Assembly: GCF_001866665.1 (NCBI RefSeq) | Contig: NZ_MLYO01000062.1 | Location: 1 to 64,000, forward strand | Source: Streptomyces monashensis | GTDB taxonomy: Bacteria; Actinomycetota; Actinomycetes; Streptomycetales; Streptomycetaceae | Length of the DNA: 64,000 bases | Direction of reading: 5' to 3' | In this document: positions 1-4,108 of the stretch, piece after piece | Layout of the letters: every line of letters starts with the position of its first letter | Numbering within the stretch: the first letter of the stretch is position 1 | The notes under the pieces: generated by a model | Database searches by the model: none | What the model was told of the DNA's origin: nothing | Seen by the model: only the letters and a program-made list of their open reading frames with translations | Program-made: the position numbers and the translations under genes

Positions 1-150
1 CCACCCCGCCACCGCGAAACGCCGCTCGCCCCCTCCGACCCCTCGCCTGCCTCTTGGCCCCCGCCCCGGTCCCGTCACCCGCCCCTTGGGCCCCGCGCCG
101 GCCCGCCGCTCGCCCCCGTCGAAGAGTCCCCGGATTCCCGGCGGCGAGGC

Positions 151-156
151 TATGCT
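151..156 (+). promoter_or_regulatory. Putative -10 box for the trpS leader
   Basis: TATGCT lies seven bases before the leader ATG at 163, which puts the likely transcription start on or next to that ATG. No convincing -35 hexamer is visible, which is common in Streptomyces. With no Shine-Dalgarno at a usable distance, the leader message looks leaderless. This is inference from spacing only. Confidence 0.5.
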
Positions 157-162
157 GTGCGC

Positions 163-204
163 ATGCATCTTTCGGCATGTCTGAGCTGGTGGCGCTCCGC
201 GTAG
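163..204 (+). CDS. Trp leader peptide of the trpS attenuator (13 aa)
   Basis: The short frame reads MHLSACLSWWRSA and stops at TAG (202-204). Two adjacent TGG tryptophan codons (187-192) lie just before the stop, as in trp leader peptides. The frame ends inside the first arm of a chain of overlapping hairpins that finishes with a terminator before trpS, so its role would be to sense charged tRNA-Trp through ribosome stalling. There is no Shine-Dalgarno in front of it; translation from the 5' end of the RNA is the simplest reading. Ribosome-mediated attenuation of an auxiliary TrpRS gene is known in S. coelicolor; assignment here is by structure alone. Confidence 0.8.
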   Translation: MHLSACLSWWRSA

Positions 205-255
205 GAGCGGCCGACTCGCATGCACACCGGGCCGTTCGGAATGGACGGCCCTTTC
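193..255 (+). promoter_or_regulatory. Transcription attenuator upstream of trpS
   Basis: Three mutually exclusive pairings can be drawn. A pause hairpin pairs CGCTCC (193-198) with GGAGCG (204-209). An antiterminator pairs GAGCGGCC (205-212) with GGCCGTTC (230-237), eight pairs including one G-U. A terminator pairs GGGCCGT (229-235) with ACGGCCC (245-251), followed by TTTCT. A ribosome stalled on the two Trp codons at 187-192 would cover the first arm, free the antiterminator and let transcription enter trpS. High tryptophan would favour the terminator. Confidence 0.8.
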
Positions 256-316
256 TCGTCCCCTGGACCAGGGCTCGTGCCTCTCTGACGGCGAGACCGA
301 CTCACCAGGAGACGTC

Positions 317-1429
317 GTGAACACCACGCCCCAGGCCGCCGGCCCCGACGCCGCTGCCGCAGACTCCGTTGCCGACTCGCTCGGGACGTCCGCCGCGCAG
401 GCGCGCAGTGCGGTGCTGGAGGAGCTCATCCGCAAGGACCCCGGACGGTTCCGCATGCTGACCGGCGACCGTCCCACCGGCCGGCTGCACCTGGGGCACT
501 ACTTCGGCACGCTGCACAACCGCGTACGCCTCCAGGACCTCGGCGTGGAGACGTACGTGATCATCGCGGACTACCAGGTCCTGACCGACCGGGACGTCGC
601 CGACAACCTGACCGGGCACGTCGAGGACCTCGTCCTGGACTACCTCGCCATCGGCGTGGACCCGCGGCGCAGCACGATCTTCACGCACAGCGCCGTCCCC
701 GCCCTCAACCAGCTGATGCTGCCCTTCCTCAGCCTCGTGTCCGTCGCCGAGCTGAACCGCAACCCCACGGTCAAGGACGAGATCGCCCACTCGCGCCAGT
801 CCGCCGTCAGCGGCCTGATGTTCACCTACCCCGTCCACCAGGCCGCCGACATCCTCTTCTGCAAGGGCAACCTGGTGCCGGTCGGCCAGGACCAGCTCCC
901 GCACCTGGAGGTCACCCGCACCATCGCCCGCCGCTTCAACGACCGCTACGGCAACGGCACTCCGGTCTTCCCGCAGCCCGACGCCCTGCTCTCCCACGCC
1001 CCGCTGCTGCTCGGCACCGACGGCACCAAGATGAGCAAGAGCCGCCGTAACGCCATCACGCTGGCCGCCGACGCCGACGAGACCGCGCGTCTGCTCAAGG
1101 GGGCCAGGACGGACTCCGAGCGGCACATCACCTACGACCCGGCGCACCGCCCCGAGGTGTCCTCCCTCCTGCTGCTGGCCGCCCTGTGCCAGAACCGCAG
1201 GCCCGAGGAGGTGGCCGAGGAGATCGGCGCGGCGGGGGCCGCCGCGCTGAAGAAGACCGTGACCGAGGCGGTCAACGAGTACCTGGCGCCGATCCGGGCC
1301 CGCCGCAGTGAGTACGCCCGGGACCGCGCCTTCCTCCAGCGGACCCTGCGCGAGGGCAACGAGCGCGCCCGCGCGGTGGCCGACGCCACGCTCGCCGAGG
1401 TCCGTGCCGCGATGAACAGCCACTACTGA
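317..1429 (+). CDS. trpS: Tryptophanyl-tRNA synthetase, auxiliary type
   Basis: A class I aminoacyl-tRNA synthetase of 370 residues that charges tRNA-Trp in the cytoplasm. The HIGH-type motif appears as TGRLHLGHY near residue 55 and the KMSKS loop is intact at residues 238-242. The stretch ADYQVLTDR has Gln where indolmycin-sensitive bacterial enzymes have the active-site His, which suggests the auxiliary, possibly indolmycin-tolerant class; that is inference from remembered alignments. GTG at 317 is preceded by AGGAG at a normal distance. The first 40 residues form a non-conserved Ala-rich tail. The gene sits behind a Trp attenuator, so it is probably induced when charged tRNA-Trp falls. Auxiliary Streptomyces TrpRS genes are known for this kind of control. 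Confidence 0.92.
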   Translation: MNTTPQAAGPDAAAADSVADSLGTSAAQARSAVLEELIRKDPGRFRMLTGDRPTGRLHLGHYFGTLHNRVRLQDLGVETYVIIADYQVLTDRDVADNLTGHVEDLVLDYLAIGVDPRRSTIFTHSAVPALNQLMLPFLSLVSVAELNRNPTVKDEIAHSRQSAVSGLMFTYPVHQAADILFCKGNLVPVGQDQLPHLEVTRTIARRFNDRYGNGTPVFPQPDALLSHAPLLLGTDGTKMSKSRRNAITLAADADETARLLKGARTDSERHITYDPAHRPEVSSLLLLAALCQNRRPEEVAEEIGAAGAAALKKTVTEAVNEYLAPIRARRSEYARDRAFLQRTLREGNERARAVADATLAEVRAAMNSHY

Positions 1430-1513
1430 CCGGGCGCGACCGGCCCGAACGGCTCCGCGGTCGGCCCACGGCCGGAGAACCGCCACGCCGGCGGAGCGCT
1501 TACGCTGGGCGGT

Positions 1514-2428
1514 GTGCTGCGCGACGTGACTGCTGTTCGATACGTGACCCCTCTCCGGTCCGGCGGCTCCGTGCCCGCAGTCGTCGAGGCCGACGACCTC
1601 GGCACGTACGTCGTGAAGTTCACCGCCTCCGCGCAGGGACACAAGGCGCTGGTCGCCGAGGTGATCGTCGGTGAACTCGCCCGCGCGCTGGGCCTGCGCT
1701 TCCCGGAGCTGGTCCTCGTCCACTTCGATCCGGCGATCGCCGCGGACGAGCCCCACCAGGAGGTCCGGGAGCTGCACGGCGCGAGCGCGGGGGTGAACCT
1801 CGGCATGGACCATCTGCCGGGCGCCGCCGACCTCACCCCCGAGATCGCGCGGGTCTTCCCGGTGGACCCGCTGGAGGCGGGCCGGATCGTCTGGCTGGAC
1901 GCGCTCACGGTCAACGTGGACCGTACGGTGCACAGCTCCAACCTGATGGTCTGGCCCACGTTCGGCACCGCGGCGCCGCACCTGTGGCTGATCGACCACG
2001 GTGCCGCCCTCGTCTTCCATCACCGCTGGGACACCACGGCCCCGGGAAAGAAGTACGACTTCCGCCATCACGCTCTCGGCCACTACGGCCCCGACGTCCG
2101 GGCCGCCGACGCCGAACTGGCCCCCCGGGTGACCGGGGAACTGCTGCGCGGCATCGTGGCCGAGGTCCCGGACGCCTGGCTCGCCGAGGACGCGGGCTTC
2201 GCGACCCCCGACGACGTCCGCGCCGCCTACGTCGACTACCTCCTGGCCCGGGTGCGGCTGTCGGCGCACTGGCTGCCCACCGACTTCCCGAGCCGCGAGC
2301 AGCTCGCCGCCGAGGAGGCGCTGCGCGCGGCGAGGAGCCAGGCGGGCCGGCCGGCCTGGCTCAAGCAGGTCCCCGACCTGCACGGCAAGCCGGCCGCGGC
2401 ACAGGACTGGTCGGTCCACCTGGGGTGA
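1514..2428 (+). CDS. HipA-like protein kinase family protein
   Basis: A 304-residue stand-alone protein resembling the C-terminal kinase half of HipA. The nucleotide-binding lysine lies in YVVKFTAS near residue 36. The catalytic loop reads LTVNVDRTVHSSNLM near residues 135-150, with Asp and Asn in the usual places. A DHG replaces DFG in LWLIDHGAALVF. No HipB-like HTH partner is adjacent, so a classical toxin-antitoxin function is not supported by context. GTG at 1514 was taken as the start; another GTG lies five codons later. It ends in a strong hairpin shared with the converging aceB. The substrate is unknown. Confidence 0.7.
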   Translation: MLRDVTAVRYVTPLRSGGSVPAVVEADDLGTYVVKFTASAQGHKALVAEVIVGELARALGLRFPELVLVHFDPAIAADEPHQEVRELHGASAGVNLGMDHLPGAADLTPEIARVFPVDPLEAGRIVWLDALTVNVDRTVHSSNLMVWPTFGTAAPHLWLIDHGAALVFHHRWDTTAPGKKYDFRHHALGHYGPDVRAADAELAPRVTGELLRGIVAEVPDAWLAEDAGFATPDDVRAAYVDYLLARVRLSAHWLPTDFPSREQLAAEEALRAARSQAGRPAWLKQVPDLHGKPAAAQDWSVHLG

Positions 2429-2436
2429 ACACGCGC

Positions 2437-2468
2437 GAGCGGTCCCGGGAGGGCTCCCGGGACCGCTC
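2437..2468. terminator. Bidirectional terminator hairpin between HipA-like gene and aceB
   Basis: A perfect 14-bp stem: GAGCGGTCCCGGGA (2437-2450) pairs with TCCCGGGACCGCTC (2455-2468) around a four-base loop. It lies between two converging genes. There is no T-tract, which is usual for Streptomyces terminators. Confidence 0.85.
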
Positions 2469-2482
2469 GGCGGGCCCGGCGC

Positions 2483-4108
2483 TCAGCCCCGCAGCTGCTC
2501 GTACGCCGGCAGGGTGAGGAAGTCGGCGTAGTCCTCGTCCAGCGAGACCTTCAGCAGCAGGTCGTGGGCCTCCTGCCAGTGCCCGGCGGCGAAGGCCTCC
2601 TCGCCGATCTCCTGGCGGATGTCGGACAGTTCCTCGGCGGCGACCTTGCGGGCCAGTTCCGGCGTGGCCGTGTCGCCGTTCTCGAACTCGACGCCCGCGT
2701 TGATCCACTGCCAGATCTGCGAGCGGGAGATCTCGGCGGTTGCCGCGTCCTCCATCAGGTTGAAGATGGCGACCGCACCGAGGCCGCGCAGCCAGGCCTC
2801 GATGTAACGGATGCCCACCTGAACGGCGTTGACCAGACCGGCGTACGTCGGCTTCGCGTCCAGCGAGTCGATCGCGATCAGGTCGGCGGCCTCGACGTGG
2901 ACGTCCTCGCGCAGCCGGTCCTTCTGGTTCGGCCGGTCACCGAGGACCTTGTCGAAGGACTCCATGGCGATCGGCACGAGGTCGGGGTGGGCGACCCAGG
3001 AGCCGTCGAAACCGTCGTTCGCCTCGCGGTCCTTGTCGGCGCGGACCTTCTCGAAGGCCACCTTGTTGACCTCGGCGTCCCTGCGGGACGGGATGAAGGC
3101 CGCCATGCCGCCGATCGCGTGCGCGCCGCGCTTGTGGCAGGTGCGCACCAGGAGTTCGGTGTACGCCCGCATGAACGGGGCGGTCATCGTCACGGCGTTG
3201 CGGTCCGGCAGGACGAACTTCGCGCCGCCGTCACGGAAGTTCTTGACGATGGAGAACAGGTAGTCCCAGCGGCCGGCGTTCAACCCGGAGGCGTGGTCGC
3301 GCAGTTCGTAGAGGATCTCCTCCATCTCGTACGCGGCGGTGATGGTCTCGATCAGGACGGTCGCGCGGACGGTGCCCTGCGGGATGCCGACGTAGTCCTG
3401 GGCGAAGACGAACACGTCGTTCCAGAGGCGGGCCTCCAGGTGCGACTCGGTCTTCGGCAGGTAGAAGTACGGGCCCTTGCCGAGGTCCAGCAGGCGCTGG
3501 GCGTTGTGGAAGAAGTACAGGCCGAAGTCGACGAGGGCGCCCGGGACCGGCGTGCCGTCGGCGTCGGCCAGGTGGCGCTCGGTCAGGTGCCAGCCGCGCG
3601 GGCGCATGACGACGGTCGCCAGCTCCCCGTCGGGGCGCAGGGCGTACGACTTGCCCGACGCCGGGTCGGTGAAGTCGATGTTCCGGGTGTAGGCGTCGGC
3701 CAGGTTGACCTGACCGAGGACGACGTTCTCCCAGGTGGGCGCGGAGGCGTCCTCGAAGTCGGCGAGCCAGACCTTCGCGCCCGAGTTGAGGGCGTTGATC
3801 GTCATCTTGCGGTCGGTCGGGCCGGTGATCTCGACGCGCCGGTCGTTCAGCGCGGCCGGGGCCGGGGCGACCTTCCAGGAGTCGTCCGCGCGGATCGCGG
3901 CCGTCTCCGGGAGGAAGTCGAGGGTGCAGGTGCGGGCGATCTCGGCGCGGCGCTCGGCCCGGCGGGCGAGGAGTTCGTCACGGCGCGGGGTGAACCGCCG
4001 GTGCAGCTCCGCCACGAAGGCGAGCGCGGCGTCCGTGAGGACCTCTTCCTGCCGGAGCAGGGGCTCGGCGTCGACGATGGCCAGCGGGGACGGCGCTGGT
4101 GCGGACAT
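2483..4108 (-). CDS. aceB: Malate synthase (A-type)
   Basis: Condenses glyoxylate with acetyl-CoA to malate. The 541-residue length fits malate synthase A. The family signature is complete in [16 protein letters not shown] near residue 270, and the conserved stretches MRPRGWH and KTESHLEA are present. The ATG at 4108 is preceded by GGAAG. No isocitrate lyase gene is nearby; the neighbours are purine-degradation genes, so its likely job here is to use the glyoxylate released by ureide breakdown. Its upstream region carries a sequence (4201-4228) that lines up with one in front of allantoinase, suggesting shared AllR control. The C-terminus lacks an obvious extension. Confidence 0.95.

Follow-up and report, generated by a model that had tools for sequence, protein, structure and literature searches.

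A predicted leaderless tryptophan attenuator in front of an auxiliary tryptophanyl-tRNA synthetase gene of Streptomyces monashensis

We found that a gene for an auxiliary tryptophanyl-tRNA synthetase (TrpRS) in Streptomyces monashensis is preceded by a short leader frame and by pause, antiterminator and terminator helices. Together these elements very likely constitute a ribosome-mediated transcription attenuator with a leaderless leader, through which an auxiliary, probably inhibitor-resistant TrpRS would be made only when charged tRNA-Trp is short. This reading builds on the anatomy of the sequence, the geometry between promoter and start codon, the missing Shine-Dalgarno (SD) sequence and the covariation of the helices. 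Where transcription starts, that the leader is translated without a 5′ UTR, that ribosomes stall on it, that the gene is induced and that the enzyme resists inhibitors are predictions. The window, that is the whole stretch of 64,000 nucleotides that was analysed, begins with the first base of its contig, and only 162 nt precede the leader ATG. The features of the locus are collected in Table 1. An earlier note on this DNA had described a 13-codon frame with two adjacent Trp codons, and this frame is indeed present, running from ATG163 to TAG204. Its stop codon lies at the loop of the stem formed by CGCTCC (193-198) and GGAGCG (204-209). According to an independent scan, the terminator reads GGGCCGTTC-GGAAT-GGACGGCCC with the tail TTTCTC, and the TrpRS gene itself starts with GTG317, 3′ of an AGGAG.

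Table 1. Positions of the attenuator elements and the TrpRS gene in the window
Feature	Position	Strand	Remark
-10 promoter element TATGCT	152-157	+	six bases 5′ of leader ATG
Leader ORF MHLSACLSWWRSA	163-204	+	13 codons, stop TAG at 202-204; ATG predicted to lie at or close to +1 (leaderless)
Adjacent Trp codons (codons 9 and 10), regulatory	187-192	+	read from sequence
Pause hairpin (1:2)	175-223	+	inner stem 191-198/204-212; outer stem 175-180/218-223
Antiterminator (2:3)	205-237	+	205-212 with 230-237; pair counts across relatives and folding energy
Terminator (3:4)	229-254	+	229-251 plus start of T-rich tail; independent terminator scan
AGGAG Shine-Dalgarno sequence of TrpRS gene	307-311	+	read from sequence
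Auxiliary tryptophanyl-tRNA synthetase, 370 aa, 'class C'	317-1429	+	TIGR00233, tree

In the proposed mechanism, RNA polymerase would start at or within about two bases of A163, and the bare 5′ AUG would be bound by a ribosome. When Trp-tRNA is plentiful, this ribosome would reach the stop codon and cover strand 2 (205-212), upon which strands 3 and 4 would make the terminator and transcription would end near 252-260. When Trp-tRNA is scarce, either by starvation or by the action of a TrpRS inhibitor such as indolmycin, the ribosome would stall on codons 9-10 and cover strand 1; the freed strand 2 would then pair with strand 3 (230-237), and the polymerase would read into trpS. If the leader were not translated at all, the pause and terminator helices would form and trpS would stay off.

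The window TrpRS scores 241.5 bits against TIGR00233 (curated cut-off 176.75), and a second TrpRS, 37% identical to it, is encoded elsewhere in the S. monashensis genome. Streptomyces TrpRSs were divided into class A, the housekeeping enzyme (15 examined), class B, another auxiliary enzyme (14 examined), and class C, which contains the window gene. In an unrooted tree of 57 TrpRS proteins, 28 of them class C, for which the program warns that long branches meet, one branch (100/100) parts class C from A and B; class B forms one group (100/98), and class A is less sure (92/79). Mean identities are 48.8% for A-B, 35.4% for A-C and 34.6% for B-C. The nearest solved structures, ranked by search and not by tree placement, are 1yi8 (1.4e-71, named tryptophanyl-tRNA synthetase) and 2a4m (7.2e-71, named TrpRS II), both presumably from Deinococcus. 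The class I signatures HLGHY and KMSKS are present in the window TrpRS, KMSKS being found in 107 of the 110 class C frames. At the class B loci (L126-L139), a simple KMSKS-type pattern was found in none of the 14 TrpRS frames, and the signature may be altered there. Near the Trp site, the motif VDLHA(I/L)T occurs in all 15 class A and in 13 of 14 class B enzymes, and ADYQV(L/I)T in 103 of the 110 class C frames. The histidine of VDLHA(I/L)T is important for indolmycin, and resistance of class C enzymes is only suggested.

We compared 110 close (class C) TrpRS loci: that of the window, 80 on named contigs, which were the top 80 among 315 relatives, and 29 from Streptomyces genomes (part of the close genome matches); seven of the 110 repeat another locus. 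A leader was found at 96 of them, with 90 distinct sequences, counts that ignore shared ancestry, and a recognisable leader was missing at the other 14 (13 distinct), including all three Micromonospora loci. At the latter (L017, L019, L030) the segment before the gene is partly kept and the leader and attenuator are decayed or missing. Two Trp residues are encoded in 85 of the 90 distinct leaders and one in five, and translation of the leader begins with ATG in 83 cases and with GTG in seven (before a start correction at locus L045). Among the leaders of 13 residues, Cys6 is found in 83 of 86 and Arg11 in all 86. Cys6 (178-180 in the window) is kept though pairing alone might allow other codons, which may reflect RNA structure only. 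The 90 natural variants, some with changes that restore pairing, are material for tests of how ribosome and RNA polymerase are paced when translation starts at the 5′ end.

In addition, 139 loci, comprising 110 of class C, 15 of class A and 14 of class B and amounting to 769,094 bases, were scanned on both strands for TAnnnT followed after 6-7 nt by ATG or GTG and a short ORF with adjacent Trp codons. The pattern matched at 104 loci, once each, of which 92 were class C, 12 class B and none class A. All matches but one were located no more than 700 nt upstream of the TrpRS gene (103/104), and the remaining one is the leader of locus L032, displaced by an insertion. The layout of the leader is beyond chance at TrpRS loci. 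At L032, roughly 0.9 kb (between about 1990 and 2870) has been inserted into the pause hairpin loop, where the leader stop codon lies, and parts the leader from its terminator and the TrpRS gene.

The distance between the TAnnnT hexamer and the start codon is 6 nt in 77 and 7 nt in 12 of the 90 distinct leaders. In the single exception, L045, the start had been assigned six bases too far downstream, and an upstream ATG restores the gap. Further upstream, the hexamer was found at 20 of 23,887 positions. An SD core precedes two of the 90 leaders (eight in one shuffled control), compared to 88 of 90 TrpRS starts. In S. lividans the distance from the −10 element to the transcription start site is 6.3 nt on average, with 88.7% between 5 and 7, and leaderless is defined there as 0-3 nt 5′ of the start codon (PMC8079986). 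By this rule the window transcript would start at or within about two bases of A163; the spacing of the −10 element and the missing SD thus strongly predict a transcript start 0-3 nt before the leader start codon. The earlier note had placed the −10 box such that the ATG falls at or near +1, a placement which TATGCT, its conserved gap and the missing SD favour. Counting from the first base of the −10 hexamer, the twelfth, which in gap-6 rows directly precedes the start codon, is C or T in 85 of 89 rows, as expected ahead of a purine start. In the window fold, the predicted transcript is almost entirely single-stranded over its first eleven bases.

No conserved column was found in the −35 region among the 89 rows; a hexamer matching TTGACA in at least four of six positions is present in 15 of these, versus 4 in one shuffle. 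A promoter scan of the window returned no promoter pair at its threshold. We also considered the leader as the tail of a longer conserved ORF. The frame in the window is open upstream to the contig end, which counts against a leaderless attenuator, yet conservation stops at the −10 element, 5′ of which only columns −3 and −2 exceed 0.6 bit, and this candidate was rejected. Alternatively, the attenuator may work as described with its leader inside a longer transcript, whose 5′ UTR would come from a promoter 5′ of 163 or from an upstream gene that is read through. As the contig reaches back only 162 nt from the ATG, promoters may lie further upstream in this genome, and at locus L014 an upstream frame in the same direction stops about 20 nt short of the leader, so that read-through transcripts could also carry the leader there. 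Against such a 5′ UTR, an SD core is missing in front of 88 of the 90 leaders, and TAnnnT keeps its distance of 6-7 nt to the start codon in 89 of 90, with variable sequence beyond it. We therefore consider a longer 5′ UTR improbable, and a leaderless start remains our preferred reading.

The earlier note had proposed folding the RNA to find the competing structures. When a ribosome is taken into account this folding gives both of the expected states. Without a ribosome, the stretch 163-262 forms the pause hairpin and the terminator (−44.6 kcal/mol), with a z-score of only −2.05 and 6 of 200 shuffles folding as well, so that single-sequence folding alone is weak evidence. If a ribosome stalled at Trp10 masks the RNA to about 203 and transcription has reached nt 240, the resulting fold is the antiterminator (−14.8 kcal/mol). 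If the ribosome has moved on to the stop codon and masks to about 215, the terminator alone forms (−17.9 kcal/mol). Once strand 4 is present next to a stalled ribosome (204-258), the terminator is again the more stable fold (−22.8 kcal/mol), and the switch must therefore be kinetic. Kinetic switching is usual for attenuators. The segment between the terminator and the TrpRS start (262-316) seems to be conserved in some close relatives, and a small hairpin is possible there as judged by eye.

Conservation of pairing was counted in 88 distinct rows, in which 941 of 962 cells are paired for the pause inner stem (a count that adds three pairs of the relatives' stem, 188-190 with 213-215), 691 of 702 for the antiterminator and 788 of 790 for the terminator. 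In 500 shuffles the maximum was 933 for the pause and 686 for the antiterminator, and neither reached the observed value. For the terminator the maximum of the 500 shuffles equals the observed 788, and covariation gives no support beyond shuffles. When the partners were slid by one or two bases, at most 63% (497/790) were paired. Cells changed on both sides number 12 for the pause, nine for the antiterminator and one for the terminator, which counts sequences and not events. Position 206 is common to two rival helices, pairing with 196 in the pause hairpin and with 236 in the antiterminator. In nine of the 88 rows A206-U236 is replaced by G-C: with G206, position 236 is C in all nine, and position 196 is C in six and T in three (G-U). 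The pair 206:236 is unpaired in three rows. The outer pause stem, in which codons 5-6 pair with the stretch after strand 2, reached a score of 509 over 90 leaders, against a mean of 483 and a maximum of 494 in 300 shuffles. Two rows are unpaired at two positions in the fixed register and complementary in a stem of their own; we take these to be the Pro forms L076 and L079. The pause, antiterminator and terminator helices are mutually exclusive, and an intrinsic terminator stands before the TrpRS gene. The exclusive pairings reported in the earlier note are thus conserved in about 90 distinct relatives, with compensatory changes in the pause and antiterminator.

The same stem changes bear on another explanation, according to which the ribosome is arrested by the nascent leader peptide itself, with a ligand (Trp, indolmycin or some other compound) as the signal in place of uncharged tRNA-Trp. 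The strong conservation of the non-Trp residues Cys6 and Arg11 and the single Trp codon in five of the 90 leaders would fit such an arrest. Residues 11 and 12 are encoded in the pause stem, however, and changes in the stem are mirrored in the peptide, with Ser12 to Leu in six leaders and Arg to Pro in two leaders of 12 residues; the Cys6 codons are likewise part of the outer stem. As these Leu and Pro substitutions accompany stem changes, conservation at the peptide level as the cause of the WWRS motif was mostly rejected. Moreover, a peptide of 13 residues barely enters the exit tunnel. We hold arrest by the peptide to be quite unlikely. That the short frame is incidental and the hairpin nothing but a terminator, or else a riboswitch that binds a tRNA or a metabolite (a T-box, for example), is highly improbable, because, certain as the terminator is, no T-box or other Rfam family matched up to E = 1 in window 1-3000, and frame, Trp codons, stop and start geometry are kept across the 90 distinct leaders.

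Attenuation at the level of stalled ribosomes, our preferred reading, has known parallels in the genus. The earlier note regarded attenuation by a leaderless peptide as an unusual detail. This does not hold, since in S. lividans the trpE, trpS, leuS and leuA leaders, as well as those of ilvB, metN and thrS, were called leaderless from RNA-seq in PMC8079986, and a trpE-type leader of S. monashensis has the same geometry. In the latter, MFAHSTLNQNWWWTARPAAH (G000:C149:209730), TAGGGT and the ATG that follows it are 7 nt apart; there is an in-frame GTG three codons further up, and a weak trpE-family match follows after ~400 nt. The Streptomyces trpE attenuator TrpL1 resembles the window element in its Trp codons, hairpins and leaderless leader (PMC8079986) and differs in governing tryptophan synthesis and in having three Trp codons and a longer leader. 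Attenuators have also been predicted before the trp operons and trpS2 of S. avermitilis (PMC1262725).

A close likeness is TrpL2-trpS (SLIV_21112/SLIV_21110) of S. lividans TK24, a leaderless Trp leader of 13 residues before a TrpRS gene and followed by hairpins. No U-rich stretch was found there (PMC8079986), whereas a short one follows the terminator of the window. Each of the 14 class B genes is preceded by a leader of 12-13 residues in which one or two Trp codons lie towards the end and whose start codon follows TAnnnT at a distance of 6-7 nt; among the 15 class A genes no such leader was found. The 14 class B leaders examined, e.g. MMTRAYTLRWRAA and MTTRTCTQLWWAA, look like TrpL2 (MMTRTCTQLWRAA), and we therefore put S. 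lividans trpS in class B, which by leader similarity separates it from the window class (class B is ~49% identical to the housekeeping enzyme and ~35% to the window class). As it belongs to a separate TrpRS lineage, the window gene is probably not the counterpart of S. lividans trpS/TrpL2, and two distantly related lineages of auxiliary TrpRS thus have leaderless-looking Trp attenuators of one plan.

Vecchione and Sello reportedly described in 2010 the ribosome-mediated transcriptional attenuation of an auxiliary, antibiotic-resistant TrpRS gene, trpRS1 of S. coelicolor. This gene, which the earlier note took as the model, shares with the window gene that it is an attenuated auxiliary TrpRS; it is probably not its orthologue, as class C stands apart from A and B in the tree, with a C-B identity of 34.6%, and we infer trpRS1 to be class B from leader similarity and the kinship with S. 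lividans, not from enzyme sequence. A second Streptomyces TrpRS that tolerates a Trp-like antibiotic is SGR_3809 of S. griseus, described as an indolmycin-resistant auxiliary TrpRS (PMC6804068) and likened here by description, not by sequence. We suspect, without proof, that it belongs to class C. Further away, the leaderless short cysteine ORFs of mycobacteria (PMC4633059) are likewise short ORFs at the 5′ end with a repeated codon thought to sense an amino acid and to tune downstream genes; they differ in being built on cysteine instead of tryptophan and in being described, in a paper that cites Canestrari et al. 2020, as translation attenuation. Polycysteine leaderless short ORFs of mycobacteria are said to be the subject of Canestrari et al. 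2020.

Leaderless Trp attenuators are thus already known in Streptomyces, and what is newly added is another enzyme lineage, a conserved attenuator with compensatory changes and the near-exclusion of class B. Our literature search, to which most subscription papers were closed, turned up no description that we recognised as one of the class C leaders, and there may be one in print. In 199 Streptomyces genomes, including the window's own, we found class C in 36, class B in 132 (at 75% identity or more; three of the matches are partial), both in four and neither in 35 (Fisher p 3e-14, phylogeny ignored). A covariance model of the element, built from 37 leaders and run with stricter filters that may lose weak matches, matched 33 of the 199 genomes at E below 1e-13. 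All of these are class C genomes, and in 32 the match lies directly before the class C gene; a strong match in G186 lies at one end of contig C15, 175 nt short of its edge. G012, G074 and G083, the class C genomes that the model did not match, belong to the four in which class B occurs as well. Their loci (L096, L092 and L094, respectively) have a class C TrpRS without the attenuator, and the spare copy may have other control. The distribution suggests that a leaderless Trp attenuator is the common arrangement for spare Streptomyces TrpRS genes, in two distant lineages that rarely share a genome. The element would mark candidate inhibitor-resistant TrpRS genes that would be silent until a Trp-tRNA inhibitor is present, and such genes matter for finding inhibitor producers or for explaining inducible resistance.

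In the TrpRS tree, a group of 13 rows (100/97) mixes Streptomycetaceae, Micromonosporaceae, Pseudonocardiaceae, Streptosporangiaceae and Propionibacteriaceae, and the leader is kept at Nonomuraea, Labedaea, Microlunatus and Actinoplanes loci. This pattern suggests that gene and attenuator may have been transferred together between families. Somewhat speculatively, an auxiliary TrpRS of foreign origin could travel between actinobacterial families together with a self-contained cassette for its induction, made up of promoter, leaderless leader and attenuator, for which the host supplies only RNA polymerase and a ribosome that starts on a 5′ AUG. It could have replaced the class B TrpRS, whose own leaderless attenuator follows the same plan and was built separately. 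The leaderless start may belong to the design, as it would tie the first ribosome closely to the polymerase and leave no SD that hairpins could hide. Against the class B leaders the class C model gave weak matches (best 20.9 bits), several aligned from about 12 nt before the start, and the two attenuators may or may not be one sequence family of common descent.

The element was also considered in front of other genes, and this was rejected: outside TrpRS loci the model gave five weak matches (E 1e-4 to 9e-4). One consists of two plain hairpins (L175), one of a tRNA-Leu followed by a terminator-like hairpin (L176), and two are terminator-like hairpins without a Trp leader (L179, L180). The fifth, L178 (G158:C1:3768416-3768537), is a perfect hairpin of ~25 pairs with PCRNWWP in one frame and without a leader start or stop, in a genome that has only one TrpRS match; it is possibly an attenuator relic or a coincidence. 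On the 3′ side of the window TrpRS gene (1514-2428) lies a gene for a HipA-like kinase domain protein (PF20613); in L014, too, the TrpRS gene is followed by a very similar neighbour.
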